Assembly (NCBI GenBank): GCA_904419075.1
Contig: CAJFQM010000002.1
Coordinates: 62,001 to 126,000 of the forward strand
DNA from: an uncultured Clostridia bacterium
GTDB lineage: Bacteria; Bacillota; Clostridia; Christensenellales; Borkfalkiaceae
DNA length: 64,000 bases
Direction: 5' to 3'
Part shown: positions 26,636 to 31,637 of the stretch, piece after piece
Layout of the letters: each line of letters begins with the position of its first letter
How positions within the stretch are numbered: position 1 is the stretch's first letter
Program-made: the position numbers and the translations under genes
The notes under the pieces: generated by a model
Told to the model about the DNA's origin: nothing
Seen by the model: only the letters and a program-made list of their open reading frames with translations
Databases searched by the model: none

Positions 26636-26665
26636 TTGACAAGACTGAGTCTTTTTTGCTATAAT
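26636..26665 (+). promoter_or_regulatory. promoter of the pfl operon
   Basis: TTGACA, 18 bases, TATAAT with TGC before the -10 (extended). No recognisable anaerobic-regulator or Rex site was identified near it. Confidence 0.75.
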
Positions 26666-26730
26666 AGATACGAAAAAAGTCGTTTGGTTAACAGCCATGC
26701 AAGAAGTTTTTCATGAGGGAGGCCGAAAAA

Positions 26731-27459
26731 TTGGAAGGATATATTCATTCGTTCGAATCGTTCGGCACGGTAGACGGGCCGGGAATAAGGTTCGTCGTAT
26801 TCATGCAGGGATGCCCCCTGCGCTGTAAATATTGTCATAATCCCGATACGTGGACGAAGGGTGGCACTGCGTATACAGCGGAGCAGGTATGCGCCGAAGC
26901 GTTGAAATATCGGAATTATTTCGGCGATACGGGCGGCGTCACCGTCTCCGGCGGGGAGCCGCTTTTGCAGATGGATTTCGTGACGGAGCTTTTTGAAAAA
27001 CTGAAAGGAAAGGGAATTCATACGGCTCTCGATACGTCGGGGTATATGTTCGATCCCGAAAATCCCGAATCGGTGGAAAAGCATAAAGCGCTTATCCGTT
27101 TTACCGACCTTGTGCTTCTCGATATAAAGCACATCGATTCAAAATCGCACGAAAGCCTTACGGGAAAAGGGAATGAGCATACTTTGGCCTTCGCGAAATT
27201 TTTGAGCGATAACGGCATTTCCATGTGGATAAGGCACGTTTTGGTTCCGGGGCTTACGGACGACGACGAGGCGCTCAAAAGACTGAAAGCCTTCATCGAT
27301 ACGTTAGAGACGGTGAAGAAGGTGGAAGTGCTTCCCTACCATACCATGGGCGAAGTGAAGTATGAAAAGCTGGGGTACGATTACCCCTTGAAGGGCGTGC
27401 GCCCTCCCGAAAAGGAGCGGGTGCAGAATGCCAAGAGACTGCTGGGAATTATCAAATAG
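26731..27459 (+). CDS. pflA: pyruvate formate-lyase activating enzyme
   Basis: 242 residues. A radical SAM enzyme that abstracts hydrogen from the PFL glycine. The cluster motif is CPLRCKYC with C28, C32 and C35, followed by HNPDTW; TVSGGEPLL is the SAM-binding stretch. I place the start at the TTG of 26731 (M-EGYIHSFESFGTVDGPGIR) because AGGGAGG lies 8 bases before it, whereas the ATG 18 bases further upstream has no ribosome site. It is the first gene of the operon pflA-trx-pflB-grcA; having activase first and a split lyase is unusual. Confidence 0.95.
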   Translation: MEGYIHSFESFGTVDGPGIRFVVFMQGCPLRCKYCHNPDTWTKGGTAYTAEQVCAEALKYRNYFGDTGGVTVSGGEPLLQMDFVTELFEKLKGKGIHTALDTSGYMFDPENPESVEKHKALIRFTDLVLLDIKHIDSKSHESLTGKGNEHTLAFAKFLSDNGISMWIRHVLVPGLTDDDEALKRLKAFIDTLETVKKVEVLPYHTMGEVKYEKLGYDYPLKGVRPPEKERVQNAKRLLGIIK

Positions 27460-27506
27460 GCGCATACTCGTCGAGTATACGGGAACATATGTGCAAGGAT
27501 TATAAA

Positions 27507-27863
27507 ATGAGCGAGTTATTTTCAAAAAAGGATTATAAGAGCCGATTGCAGGGGCTTTGCTGCGTAGAGGTGAGCGGAGAATCGTGCGCCAACTGTCTGA
27601 CGCTTATGCCCGTGCTTCAATCGTTGATAGATGCCCGCGGAGATATTCGCCTCGTACATGTGGAGGCGGATTTTCAGACGACGGAACTCATGGAAGAATG
27701 GGAGGTCTCTCGGGTTCCCACCGTTCTTCTGATGGACGACGGGAAAATTTTCGCGCGTTTTTCGGGATTCCAGCCCGAAGAAATTCTCGAAATTTGGCTG
27801 GACGCAAAGATTGAAGAACACAAAGCGGCAAAAGCGGCGGCTTGCGGCAAAGAAGGTAAATAA
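27507..27863 (+). CDS. thioredoxin-like protein with CANC active site
   Basis: 118 residues from MSELFSKKDYKSRLQG; the ATG at 27489 is possible, but CAAGGAT lies 7 bases before 27507. The thioredoxin fold is shown by ESCANCLTLMPVLQSL (C27, C30), the cis-proline motif VPTVLLMDDG and RFSGFQPEEIL. The CANC dipeptide differs from the CGPC of thioredoxin, so redox potential and partners may differ. No signal peptide. It sits between pflA and pflB, suggesting a thiol role connected to PFL (for example keeping the active-site cysteine pair reduced), which is inference. Confidence 0.8.
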   Translation: MSELFSKKDYKSRLQGLCCVEVSGESCANCLTLMPVLQSLIDARGDIRLVHVEADFQTTELMEEWEVSRVPTVLLMDDGKIFARFSGFQPEEILEIWLDAKIEEHKAAKAAACGKEGK

Positions 27864-28007
27864 GAAAAGTTAAAATTATGCCGCATGCAAAAAAGTAAAA
27901 AGGCGAGGCCGGTGCGCGGCAATCGCATAAGAGGGAAGAGGGGAATAAAACGAAGTAAAAGCGCACATACTGATTTATCGAAAAAAATTTTTTCAGGAGA
28001 TATTTAT

Positions 28008-30041
28008 ATGCAATACAAAGGATGGGAGGGGTTTATCCCCGGCAAATGGAGCGAAGACGAAGTGGACGTGCGCGACTTTATTCAGCGCAATTACACGCCT
28101 TACGAGGGAGATTCGTCTTTCCTTGCGCCGCCTACCGAGGCGACGAAAAAACTGTGGGATATCGTCCTCGACCTTTCTAAAAAGGAAAGAGAAGCAGGCG
28201 GTGTGCTGGACGCGGATACCAAAATCGTCTCTACGCTCACTTCGCACGCGGCGGGGTATCTCGACAAAGACCTCGAAAAAATCGTGGGCTTGCAGACGGA
28301 TAAGCCTTTCAAGCGCTCTTTGCAGCCCTTCGGCGGAATCCGCATGTCGGAAGAAGCGCTCAACATGTACGGGTATACCCTCGATCCCGAAGTCAAAGAA
28401 ATCTTTACGAAATACCGCAAGACGCACAACGACGGCGTCTATGACGCTTATACTCCCGAAATGCGCGCGGCGCGTTCGGCGCATATTCTCACGGGACTTC
28501 CCGATACCTACGGCCGCGGCCGTATCGTCGGCGACTATCGCAGAGTGGCTCTGTACGGCGTGGACTATCTCATTCGTAAAAAGGAAGAGGATAAACTCGC
28601 CATGAACGGCGACATGCTTCCCGATAAAGTGCGCGACAGAGAGGAACTCTCCGAGCAAATCAAGGCGCTCAAAGCGCTCAAACAGCTCGCGGAAATTTAC
28701 GGGAAAGACATTTCCCAGCCCGCCACGAACGCCGAAGAGGCCGTTCAGGCGCTGTATTTCGGATATTTAGCCGCGGTGAAGGATCAGAACGGCGCCGCGA
28801 TGTCTATCGGCAGGAACAGCACTTTCCTCGATATTTATATCGAACGCGACCTCAAAAACGGCGTCATCACCGAACAGGAGGCGCAGGAACTCATCGATCA
28901 ATTTGTCATGAAACTGAGAATTGTCAAGTTCATGCGCATCAAGGAATATAACGAGCTGTTCTCGGGCGATCCGACCTGGGTGACGGAGTCTATCGGCGGC
29001 ATGGGCGTGGACGGACGGACGCTGGTAACGAAAAATTCCTTCCGTATCCTGCACACGCTCGATAACCTCGGTCCCGCTCCCGAACCTAACCTGACGGTGC
29101 TTTGGTCGAAGAAGCTGCCTTCCAACTTCAAAAAGTACTGCGCGGAAATTTCCATCCGCACCTCCGCCATTCAGTACGAAAGCGACGATCTGATGCGTCC
29201 CGAAATGGGGGACGATTACTGTATCGCCTGCTGCGTGAGCTGTATGCGCGTCGGAAAGGATATGCAATTTTTCGGCGCACGCGCCAATCTCGCAAAGTGC
29301 CTTCTTTACGCGATAAACGGCGGCAAGGACGAGCTCATGAAGGATAAAAAGACGGGGAAACCCATGCAGGTTTCTCCCGAATTCGCTCCCGTATCGGGGG
29401 ACGGGCCTCTCGATTTCGACGAGGTCATCAGAAAGTATAAGCAAATGATGTCCTGGCTGGCGGGATTGTATGTGAATACGCTCAACCTCATTCACTATAT
29501 GCACGACAAATACAGCTATGAGGCGCTCGAAATGGCGCTGCACGACACCAAAGTGCGCCGCTTCTTTGCCACCGGTATCGCGGGTCTGTCCTGCGCCGTG
29601 GATTCTCTTTCCGCCATTAAATATGCGAAAGTATATCCCATCCGCAACGAAGAGGGAATCGTCACCGATTTCCGTATCGAGGGAGATTTCCCCAAATACG
29701 GCAACAACGACGACCGCGCGGACAATATCGCCGTTTGGCTTCTGAAAACCTTCATGACGGACATCAAGAGCCACTACACTTATCGCGAAAGTATTCCCAC
29801 GACTTCCATCCTGACCATTACTTCCAACGTCGTGTACGGCAAAAAGACGGGCAATACGCCCGACGGCCGCCGCGCGGGGACTCCCCTTGCGCCCGGCGCC
29901 AATCCCATGCACGGCAGGGATACTCACGGGGCCCTCGCTTCCCTCGAATCGGTGGCGAAACTTCCCTATGAGTATTCGAGGGACGGAATTTCCAATACCT
30001 TCTCGATTACTCCCAGCTCGCTGGGCAAGGACGAAGATTAA
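28008..30041 (+). CDS. pflB: pyruvate formate-lyase catalytic core, lacking the glycyl-radical domain
   Basis: 677 residues, against about 760 in E. coli PflB. It converts pyruvate and CoA to acetyl-CoA and formate. The start at 28008 ([22 protein letters not shown]) follows AGGAGA; 41 upstream in-frame codons are not PFL-like. The catalytic Cys-Cys pair is present at 408-409 ([28 protein letters not shown]). The protein stops right after [12 protein letters not shown], the linker that normally leads into the glycine-radical domain; that domain is the next gene, 30 bases on. The two frames are the same and are separated by two in-frame TAA codons (30039, 30048). Core plus small protein equals 755 residues. 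Confidence 0.95.
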
Positions 30042-30071
30042 AAAACTTAAAAACAAAAGGAGAAAACAACT

Positions 30072-30308
30072 ATGTCGAAACAACAAGTAGATAATTTGGT
30101 CAATATGCTGGACGCCTACGTCGCGGACGGCGGCTATCATCTCAACGTAAACGTATTCAATCGCGAAACGCTGCTGGATGCTCAGAAACATCCCGAAAAG
30201 TATCCTCAGCTGACGATCCGCGTCTCCGGCTATGCGGTCAATTTCAATAAACTGACGAAAGAACAGCAGGACGACGTGATTTCCCGGACAATTCACGAAT
30301 CCATGTAA
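30072..30308 (+). CDS. grcA: stand-alone glycyl-radical domain completing PflB
   Basis: 78 residues homologous to the last part of PflB and to GrcA/Yfi[35 protein letters not shown] and [18 protein letters not shown]. The radical glycine is G53 in RVSGYAV. It has its own ribosome site (AAAGGAG, 9 bases before the ATG). E. coli GrcA is a spare part that repairs oxygen-cleaved full-length PFL; here the preceding PflB has no such domain of its own, so this protein should be an obligatory subunit rather than a spare. A hairpin follows. Confidence 0.93.
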
Positions 30309-30350
30309 CGGGACGAGAAAAAGCAAGATAACGATTTCAGCGTTTGTACG

Positions 30351-30380
30351 GGAAGCCGAATAATCTTCGGCTTCCTTTGG
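30351..30380 (+). terminator. hairpin after the pfl operon
   Basis: GGAAGCCGAA / TTCGGCTTCC, 10 bp perfect with a TAATC loop, followed by TTTGGATTTT. It ends about 30 bases before the next gene, so some read-through into it is possible. Confidence 0.75.
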
Positions 30381-30407
30381 ATTTTGAGAGAAATGTGAGG
30401 TATGCCT

Positions 30408-31637
30408 ATGGCGAAACGGAGAAAAAATACCCGCCGCAGGCGGGCGGCGGCTTTATTGGTCGCGCTCCTGTTGATTGCGGCTATTATCTGCGGTTACATA
30501 CTTTGGAGCAAGGGCTATCTGGACGGCTTTATTCCCTCGGACAGTACATCGGATGAGGGCAGTTCGGGCGGAAGTTCGGACAGCGCGTCGGACGAGGATA
30601 GTTCGGGCGGAAGTTCGGACAGCGCGTCGAACGAGGATAGTTCAAGCGGAGCGGATATCGTCACGGACGAATTGAGTATTCATTTTCTGATGCTGGGAAA
30701 TAAATATTCGGGAGATTGTACGCTGATTAAGGCGGGGGATACGGAAATTTTAATCGACGCCGGTTCCAGGGCGAGTTCCGCGGAGACGATTGCGGAGTAC
30801 GTGAGCGAATATTGCGAGGACGGAGTTCTCGAATATGTGATTGCCACGCATGCGGATCAGGATCATATTTCGGGATTTGTGGGAACGACGAAAATTCCCG
30901 GTATTTTCGACGTATTCGAATGTGAAACGATCATCGATTTTCCGAAAACCAATAAAGACACGAAAGTTTATCACGATTATGTCGAAAAACGCGACGCGGA
31001 AGTAGAGAGCGGTGCGGTGCACTATACCGCCCTCGAATGTTGGAACGAGACGAACGGAGCTAAGCGCAGTTATGAGATCGCGGACGGAATTACGATGAAT
31101 ATTTTATACAACGTATTCTATGAGGAAAAGTCGAGCGACGAAAACAATTATTCCGTATGTCTGTTATTTACGCAGGGCGAAAATCATTATTTATTCACGG
31201 GAGATTTGGAGGAGAAGGGCGAGGAGGCCCTGGTGGAAAACAATGATCTGCCGCAATGCAAGCTGTTTAAGGCAGGGCATCACGGAAGTCCCACTTCGAG
31301 CACGGAGGCGTTGTTATCCGTAATCCGTCCCGAAATCGTCGTCGTAAGCTGCTGCTGCGGCAACGAGACGGAATATCCCTTCTCTTCGATGGATGTTGTT
31401 TTTCCTTCTCAGGCTTTCGTGGACAGGGTAGCGCCGTATACGGACAAAATTTACGTTCCGACCGTCTATTCCGAAACGGCGGAAGGAGGATTCGAGGCGA
31501 TGAACGGCAACGTTGTCGTTTCCTCGGACGGCGGAGAAGTAAACGTGAGCTGCTCCAACAACGATATTCTTTTCAAGGATACCGAATGGTTCAAAAAATA
31601 CCGAACGTGGCCCGAAAACGGAGTGGGCGCGGCATAG
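30408..31637 (+). CDS. membrane-anchored metallo-beta-lactamase-fold protein, ComEC-C-terminal-like
   Basis: 409 residues. Very basic start (KRRKNTRRRR), one membrane helix (about 14-33), then a Ser/Gly/Asp linker (44-82) with a 13-residue repeat DEGSSGGSSDSAS, then an extracytoplasmic metallo-beta-lactamase fold: THADQDH (147-153) is the HxHxDH-type metal motif with Asp for the second His, and FTGDLEEKGE and KAGHHGS follow. This is the layout of the domain at the end of ComEC and of many clostridial surface proteins; a nuclease or phosphodiesterase role is possible but not shown. I prefer the ATG at 30408, since GAGG is only 1 base from the ATG at 30402. Confidence 0.8.
   Translation: MAKRRKNTRRRRAAALLVALLLIAAIICGYILWSKGYLDGFIPSDSTSDEGSSGGSSDSASDEDSSGGSSDSASNEDSSSGADIVTDELSIHFLMLGNKYSGDCTLIKAGDTEILIDAGSRASSAETIAEYVSEYCEDGVLEYVIATHADQDHISGFVGTTKIPGIFDVFECETIIDFPKTNKDTKVYHDYVEKRDAEVESGAVHYTALECWNETNGAKRSYEIADGITMNILYNVFYEEKSSDENNYSVCLLFTQGENHYLFTGDLEEKGEEALVENNDLPQCKLFKAGHHGSPTSSTEALLSVIRPEIVVVSCCCGNETEYPFSSMDVVFPSQAFVDRVAPYTDKIYVPTVYSETAEGGFEAMNGNVVVSSDGGEVNVSCSNNDILFKDTEWFKKYRTWPENGVGAA

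Follow-up and report, generated by a model that had tools for sequence, protein, structure and literature searches.

The window, the whole 64,000-nucleotide stretch of DNA analysed here, encodes a pyruvate formate-lyase (PFL) in two neighbouring genes, a core and a small glycyl-radical (GR) subunit directly downstream of it. Genes for the PFL activating enzyme and a thioredoxin-like protein precede them. The features of the locus are as follows.

26636..26665, + strand: sigma-70-type promoter TTGACA-18-TATAAT (12/12, second hexamer preceded by TG), 47 nt upstream of the pflA start codon; promoter scan
26713..27459, + strand: pflA, PFL activating enzyme (radical SAM), 248 aa; TIGR02493, 316.2 bits against a cut-off of 231.75
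27489..27863, + strand: thioredoxin-like protein, 124 aa, with CANC (C33, C36), Pro77 and a C-terminal QPEEILEIW; PF00085, 38.9 bits, above the cut-off of 23.5
27995..27999, + strand: AGGAG, ribosome-binding site for the PFL core; from sequence
28008..30041, + strand: PFL core subunit, 677 aa; TIGR01255, 1089 bits, above the cut-off of 994.2; PF02901, 703 bits
29229..29234, + strand: codons of the catalytic Cys408-Cys409; from sequence, CCVS motif kept in split cores
30042..30071, + strand: spacer, 30 nt, with a second in-frame TAA (30048-30050) and AAAGGAG (30056-30062); from sequence
30072..30308, + strand: GR subunit, 78 aa (NCBIfam GrcA3); NF038360, 163.5 bits, above the cut-off of 158
30228..30230, + strand: codon of the radical-site glycine, Gly53 in RVSGYAV; invariant in 30 aligned GR subunits
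30350..30376, + strand: terminator-like hairpin 3' of the GR gene, 11 pairs; terminator scan

The core ORF runs from the ATG at 28008 to a TAA at 30039-30041, and its product ends in SLGKDED. The longest ORF in a mechanical listing starts at 27885 and comprises 718 aa; we place the start at 28008 instead, because a ribosome-binding site is found there and the alignment with relatives begins there. The GR ORF follows its own AAAGGAG (30056-30062) with an ATG at 30072 and a stop codon at 30306-30308. A sequence-only reading of this stretch had described a PflB split into a core and a stand-alone glycyl-radical ORF, the two sharing one frame with two in-frame TAA codons between them (30039-30041 and 30048-30050), with Cys-Cys (408-409) and RVSGYAV (G53) intact and a combined length of 755 residues (677 + 78). 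All of this held when coordinates, ribosome-binding sites and ends were re-read and the motifs were checked in the sequence and in alignments.

Against E. coli PFL (1h16), the core alignment ends at residue 678 and the GR alignment begins at 684. The core covers positions 2-664 of the 744 in TIGR01255 and the GR ORF positions 664-744, while the Pfam Gly_radical model is divided by the break, with positions 2-50 in the core and 51-106 in the GR ORF. The core passes the TIGR01255 cut-off without the GR ORF. Two features of the PFL family, the adjacent catalytic cysteines and a cognate activase (pflA), are found at the locus; the glycine-bearing part of the glycyl-radical domain, which a one-chain PFL carries in the same polypeptide, is absent from the core chain and lies in the separate ORF at 30072-30308.

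Judged by their sequence context, the genes for PflA, the thioredoxin-like protein, the core and the GR subunit look like one operon, which the hairpin at 30350-30376 likely ends. Between 26200 and 30700 the scan returned 2 promoter-like sites against a mean of 4.0 in shuffles, and the site at 26636-26665 was the single 12/12 match. On the two strands of the stretch together there were 17 terminator-like sites, against a mean of 6.3 in shuffles. No promoter-like or terminator-like + strand site was found by the window scan in the 30-nt spacer between core and GR gene. An ORF 3' of the operon (30402-31637) has, by eye, the look of a metallo-beta-lactamase fold (ATHADQDH motif).

To see how far this arrangement extends, GR matches were collected from related genomes. 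In the family of the window, 88 of 151 genomes had a GR match at E<=1e-20, which was stand-alone in 47 and part of a frame of at least 313 aa in 41; loci were read in 33 of the 47, and the remaining 14 were judged by open-frame length. Among the best 80 of 190 relatives of the window core in named genomes, 71 were split and 9 fused. The nearest relatives, Ca. Scatosoma pullistercoris (core 96% identical) and Ca. Scatosoma pullicola (94%), are both split, so that the split, whose absence from close relatives would have spoken against the sequence-only reading, is present in them and far beyond. Within the same best 80 of 190, the loci of Ca. Coproplasma and Ca. Gallimonas (three each) are split, as are six of six loci labelled Acholeplasmatales, Anaeroplasmataceae, Anaeroplasma or Bacillales (L119, L120, L127, L133, L137 and L142), which are 83-85% identical to the window core. 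These six suggest that the two-gene form was transferred between classes, or else they belong to mislabelled MAGs.

Wider draws revealed a second lineage. An order-wide draw of 297 genomes gave one clear split case in another family (G159, locus read), and a phylum-wide draw of 398 genomes gave just one other genome (G646) with a close stand-alone GR match. At least 23 of 391 genomes drawn from the class, counting the window's own, had a stand-alone GR ORF of 78-106 aa, and 21 of these, from 8 families other than the window's, constitute the second lineage (type 2). In total we read 114 distinct split loci, 93 of type 1 and 21 of type 2, where a locus counted as distinct if its last 200 core residues differed from those of every locus included before it. 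The type-1 core stops 2-7 residues past the LG of SLG (93 distinct loci), and pflA lies upstream in 87 of 90 type-1 loci with enough upstream DNA. Type-2 cores (21 loci) are 66-73% identical to the window's and do not stop at the ALGK(D/E)D-like residues but add a tail, which extends 10-46 aa beyond ALG in all 21; their pflA lies downstream in 19 of 21 and was not seen in the fetched stretch in the other 2. Apart from these lineages, two ORFs of distant glycyl radical enzymes (L152:958-3267 and L153:1487-3760, with 26 and 37% identity over the matching stretch) end short of the GR motif, and each has a GR match in a frame of its own, of 110 and 100 aa, respectively; they may be frameshifts or splits of another family.

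The gene between pflA and the core follows the split closely. Of 90 distinct split type-1 loci, 84 have a thioredoxin-like gene in this place; none of 14 distinct fused type-1 loci has one, and in all of these pflA lies directly before the PFL. Three split loci were excluded for short upstream DNA (L037, L047 and L142), and fused L063 was dropped as coming from the same genome as L010; two further loci, fused L187 and split L186 (G128), also lack the gene. Profile scores across the 151 family genomes were bimodal (43 at 84-152 bits, the rest at most 58.6), which assigned the gene to 42 of 47 split genomes, 0 of 41 fused genomes and 1 of 63 without a GR match. The split genomes without it are G020, G025, G075, G126 and G128. 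In G091, the single positive without a GR match, the contig ends inside a type-1 core, and in a few split genomes (G114, G147) the thioredoxin-like and GR matches are on different contigs. This link between a thioredoxin-like gene and split PFL is newly found here; the sequence-only reading made no mention of the gene. C33, C36 and P77 of the protein are invariant in 22 of 22 aligned, and a QPxEI..W segment is conserved. Judged by TIGR01068, whose equivalog cut-off it misses (38.1 vs 96.8), the product of 27489-27863 is a thioredoxin-fold relative and not an ordinary TrxA; it scores under the cut-off of every NCBIfam model it matched.

The gene could nonetheless be a mere passenger of one operon layout, with no role in the split enzyme, a reading that we regard as a serious possibility, though short of probable. 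The split label changes about five times on the tree, so the linkage could be inherited, and the Fisher p of 4.9e-13 for the linkage at loci ignores kinship. Kinship-corrected tests have no power because the split/fused state changes few times on the tree. Just 3 supported tree-independent pairs are available; they agree in direction in 2.3 on average and are never reversed, which speaks against a passenger, as do the absence of the gene from all 41 genomes with a fused GR frame, its occurrence almost only with split PFL, and the invariant CxxC and Pro77. On the other side, the gene is absent from 7 examined split type-1 loci, and the sister split lineage does without it: no such gene was found in the 21 type-2 genomes searched (at most 50.8 bits). 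The gene is therefore not strictly required for a split PFL, being absent from 6 of the 90 split loci, L186 and the type-2 genomes.

We next consider what the small GR protein is for. Its NCBIfam name, GrcA3 'autonomous glycyl radical cofactor' (NF038360), implies a spare part, and the window's GR subunit passes the cut-off of that model (163.5 vs 158). All 30 aligned GR subunits, the window's included, match it at E<=0.001, with the curated cut-off checked for the window's alone. The protein also resembles GrcA/YfiD (TIGR04365; PDB 6owr) in that both are free-standing GR domains partnering a PFL without a usable GR domain of its own. We nevertheless find it very unlikely that it is a classical GrcA/YfiD spare part repairing only oxygen-cleaved full-length PFL. 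It misses the TIGR04365 cut-off (101.6 vs 170), and it adjoins a core without the GR glycine. The disordered N-terminus of about 60 aa that is important for docking in GrcA, according to excerpts of PMC8683613, is absent from the window's GR subunit, which, unlike GrcA, holds an 11-residue segment of its own.

Moreover, GrcA accompanies a complete PFL, and none was found in the split type-1 genomes searched. The window's genome (2.33 Mb, 38 contigs, 94% complete) has no PF02901 match other than the window locus. Its one further Gly_radical match lies on another contig (L002), in a frame of 756 aa beside an ORF with 28% identity to PflA over a part of the length; this frame is presumably an anaerobic ribonucleotide reductase. 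We searched 33 split type-1 genomes whole with the window core, namely 32 of the window's family (the window's included) and G159. Each contained one PFL, 81-100% identical to the window core, and no second one (33/33); other matches were partial and at most 36% identical. For many gut bacteria the two-piece enzyme is the sole PFL found. Among the 33, the locus of G004 is spread over two contigs and that of G126 is cut by a contig end. A complete PflB elsewhere, which would make the locus vestigial, was thus looked for and not found in the window's genome or in any of the 33. Type 2 is less uniform: 19 of 21 genomes showed no further PFL, and two carry a full-length PFL beside the split one (G1150, C37:19853-22084; G1051, C65:14803-17028). 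The sequence-only reading, in which both parts would be obligatory, is supported by the 33 type-1 genomes and qualified by these two, which carry both forms and offer a natural comparison.

Because the two pieces share a frame in the window, stop-codon read-through or frameshifting might join them into one chain. Across loci the evidence is against this, and we hold it to be extremely improbable. The gap between core and GR gene spans 3-391 nt in type 1, and gap lengths modulo 3 of 0, 1 and 2 occur in 28, 30 and 35 of the 93 loci, so that all three relative frames are represented and the same frame is found in just 28. Of the 114 distinct split loci, 112 have at least 4 bases of AGGAGG ahead of the GR start, which provides the GR ORF with its own ribosome-binding site. 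In addition, one genus (g4) has a GR promoter: all 4 loci fetched from it (L037, L044, L045 and L054) have TTGACA-17-TATAAT immediately ahead of the GR gene, and the site is kept although much of the 84-86-nt gap has diverged. Given this conserved promoter between core and GR gene, the GR subunit can probably be transcribed without the core in genus g4. Such independent transcription of the radical subunit is what a replaceable part would need. More generally, a promoter-like site of at least 10/12 occurs in 8 of 60 core-GR gaps of at least 60 nt, against 0.8 expected from mononucleotide shuffles. Terminators were found in 1 of 73 gaps of at least 40 nt, which rules out attenuation between core and GR gene as a general theme.

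Both parts of the split PFL are conserved. Every one of the 114 distinct split loci keeps RVSGYAV, the CCVS motif is present in all 113 cores long enough to be assessed (the remaining one is too short), and Gly53 is invariant in the 30 aligned GR subunits. Median dN/dS in 19 near pairs was 0.040 for the core and 0.022 for the GR subunit, and both are under purifying selection. A decaying gene or a sequencing or assembly error, that is, a normal PFL broken by stop codons, would fit the shared frame in the window and can practically be dismissed in view of 114 distinct split loci with several stops (TAA, TGA and TAG) and all frames, ribosome-binding sites in 112, dN/dS far below 1, and no second PFL found in the 33 genomes searched. 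The sequence-only reading had already argued that a single sequencing indel was not the cause, and the recurrence in separately assembled genomes, with stops, gaps and frames that differ, agrees with it. Recurrence, varied frames and stops, dN/dS and the lack of a second PFL in these searches are the grounds on which we rejected the artefact, spare-part-only and read-through readings.

Among glycyl radical enzymes PFL is the textbook case, and its best-known weakness is that oxygen cleaves it irreversibly. We propose that the locus very probably encodes a working PFL of two obligatory subunits, probably with an exchangeable radical subunit. The anatomy of the locus, the searches that found no second PFL, the conservation, the purifying selection, the gene order and the thioredoxin linkage all argue for this reading, and from them we infer complex formation, installation of the radical, exchange after oxygen damage and a role for the thioredoxin-like protein. 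The substrate sites and the Cys408/Cys409 pair would lie in the 677-aa core (~75 kDa). The GR subunit of 78 aa would dock by its N-terminal segment, a predicted helix followed by a strand, at the site that the C-terminal domain fills in ordinary PFL, which would bring Gly53 beside Cys409. PflA would then put the radical on Gly53 of the docked subunit, leading to the thiyl radical that cleaves pyruvate. Oxygen would destroy just the small radical subunit (~8.6 kDa), which could be swapped while the core is kept, and the thioredoxin-like protein would most likely keep the catalytic dithiol of the core reduced while the active site is uncapped. The docking element may be the 11-residue N-terminal segment that the natural break left on the radical subunit; this segment is a helix in a low-confidence model. 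The GR subunit alone was modelled modestly (pLDDT 66.9, with the N-terminal helix near 50). The modelling of the complex proposed by the sequence-only reading was run with AlphaFold2, and the resulting read-through model was too poor to use (pLDDT 57.5) and gives the two-subunit reading no structural support.

Work on E. coli provides a precedent for PFL in two pieces. Excerpts of PMC12338860 report that PflB-G734A produced formate with GrcA and none without it. Once activated, an artificial pair of tPFL(1-695) and YfiD(61-127) turned over at 204 per second, against 105 for the wild type (excerpts of PMC8683613). The same excerpts describe poor activation of the artificial split (2.7 vs 17.2 uM radical), and there ITC detected no binding of YfiD to tPFL and gave a signal too weak to measure for truncated YfiD on cleaved PFL. 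A two-piece PFL is therefore chemically sound and its assembly is the problem, so that the natural subunits must dock better than the artificial ones. The artificial cut lies about 11-17 residues later than the natural break and leaves the NLxxLMDGY segment on the core (PMC8683613, in part).

Some type-2 loci contain a further component. A third ORF of 63-84 aa lies between core and GR gene in all eight type-2 loci with a gap of at least 215 nt, and just after the GR gene in a ninth (L154).

Look-alike ORFs: L151:4154-4363, L157:3988-4239, L166:3821-4009, L170:903-1103, L171:3751-3954, L173:268-465, L154:4549-4749
Look-alike ORFs, reverse strand: L163:1632-1856(-), L169:1280-1477(-)

The first ~30 residues of its product resemble the first half of the GR subunit (hhalign probability 93%, E 2.8e-7, 29 columns). 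NF038360 matches 5 of 6 scanned look-alikes at E 2.5e-4 to 0.16, and the look-alike profile matches the window's own GR subunit at E 4.8e-6. Where the GR subunit has its glycine loop, the look-alike has a Cys-rich tail, e.g. GCTDCSRTPLACSVPTLHEGLD. By its sequence, this ORF encodes a glycine-less GR look-alike with a Cys-rich tail, which is newly found here. Searching 361 class genomes with the profile gave 8 strong matches (at least 67 bits), all beside a split PFL, and five further, weak matches at E<=1e-4 to the first halves of GR subunits. In 7 other type-2 loci the core itself has a similar C..AC..P motif as its tail, and no type-2 locus was seen with both. Neither was found in five loci (L155, L156, L159, L160 and L162), where the core tail and the core-GR gap were examined and the downstream DNA was covered by the profile search.

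These observations tentatively suggest an oxygen-repair cycle, which we put forward as a possibility and no firmer than that, in which a removable radical cap, a guardian and the activase would cooperate so that just the 8-9 kDa subunit is sacrificed. On this view glycyl radical enzymes could be constructed with a cap that comes off, and a core without its cap would require a guardian. In type 1, the guardian would be the dedicated thioredoxin-like protein, which would re-reduce the exposed catalytic cysteine pair. In type 2, it might be the look-alike, which keeps the docking half (predicted helix and GHxNV strand) and bears a Cys-rich tail where the GR subunit has its radical loop, or alternatively the similar Cys motif grafted onto the C-terminus of the core. 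The thioredoxin-like gene and the glycine-less look-alike are candidate new parts of the PFL maintenance machinery.

By score, the two parts at the locus belong to PFL and GrcA3, and the enzyme should work as a PFL. By the features compared here, it appears as neither an ordinary one-chain PFL nor a spare-part GrcA. It resembles E. coli PflB (PDB 1h16/2pfl) in core sequence, Cys pair, GR motif and activase; E. coli PflB is one chain, whereas the window's PFL is broken between E. coli residues ~678 and 684. Benzylsuccinate and alkylsuccinate synthases are glycyl radical enzymes with small extra subunits, in which the GR domain stays in the large subunit. The sequence-only reading did not know the heteromeric enzyme as a described form. 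Among the papers listed in searches of the open-access literature, preprints excluded, none described a natural split PFL, in line with that reading; databases qualify it, with GrcA3 in NCBIfam and two PFL chains without a GR match in the PDB. Of these 'Formate acetyltransferase' entries, 38la (687 aa) ends exactly in SLGKED, like the type-1 core, and 38lb (739 aa) runs past ALGK with a tail. The PDB search found no GR chain for either among GR matches at E<=0.001 or E<=10. Both are probably natural split cores, with a designed truncation possible for 38la, and others therefore probably know such enzymes. An obligatory heteromer, as proposed from the sequence, is the best genomic reading of the locus, set against the small protein having already been named as a spare part. 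If it is correct, annotation would need to be changed, with the 'spare part' GrcA3 being the catalytic radical subunit in these genomes and the neighbouring 'formate C-acetyltransferase' being incomplete without it. So widespread a natural form suggests that a glycyl radical cofactor can be a replaceable part in the normal state, and in a split PFL docking, radical installation and exchange could be measured separately.

Finally, we examined the origin of the split in phylogenetic trees. In a 70-row tree, types 1 and 2 together with 9 fused rows form one clade (support 100/99). The split label needs 5-6 changes on the trees, and both a single clade of all type-1 splits (AU p 0.029) and a single clade of the fused rows inside (AU p 0.0258) are weakly rejected. 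The split/fused state thus seems to have changed more than once. Of the 15 fused rows listed within the clade (L010 and L063 being one genome), 14 have the usual 8-residue linker, which speaks against simple re-fusion; on the present sequences, either repeated splitting at one spot or re-fusion could account for the pattern. Fused PFLs nested among split ones include L102, L104, L122, L126, L132, L135, L143, L144 and L184, besides others, and some fused rows are long branches in the tree.
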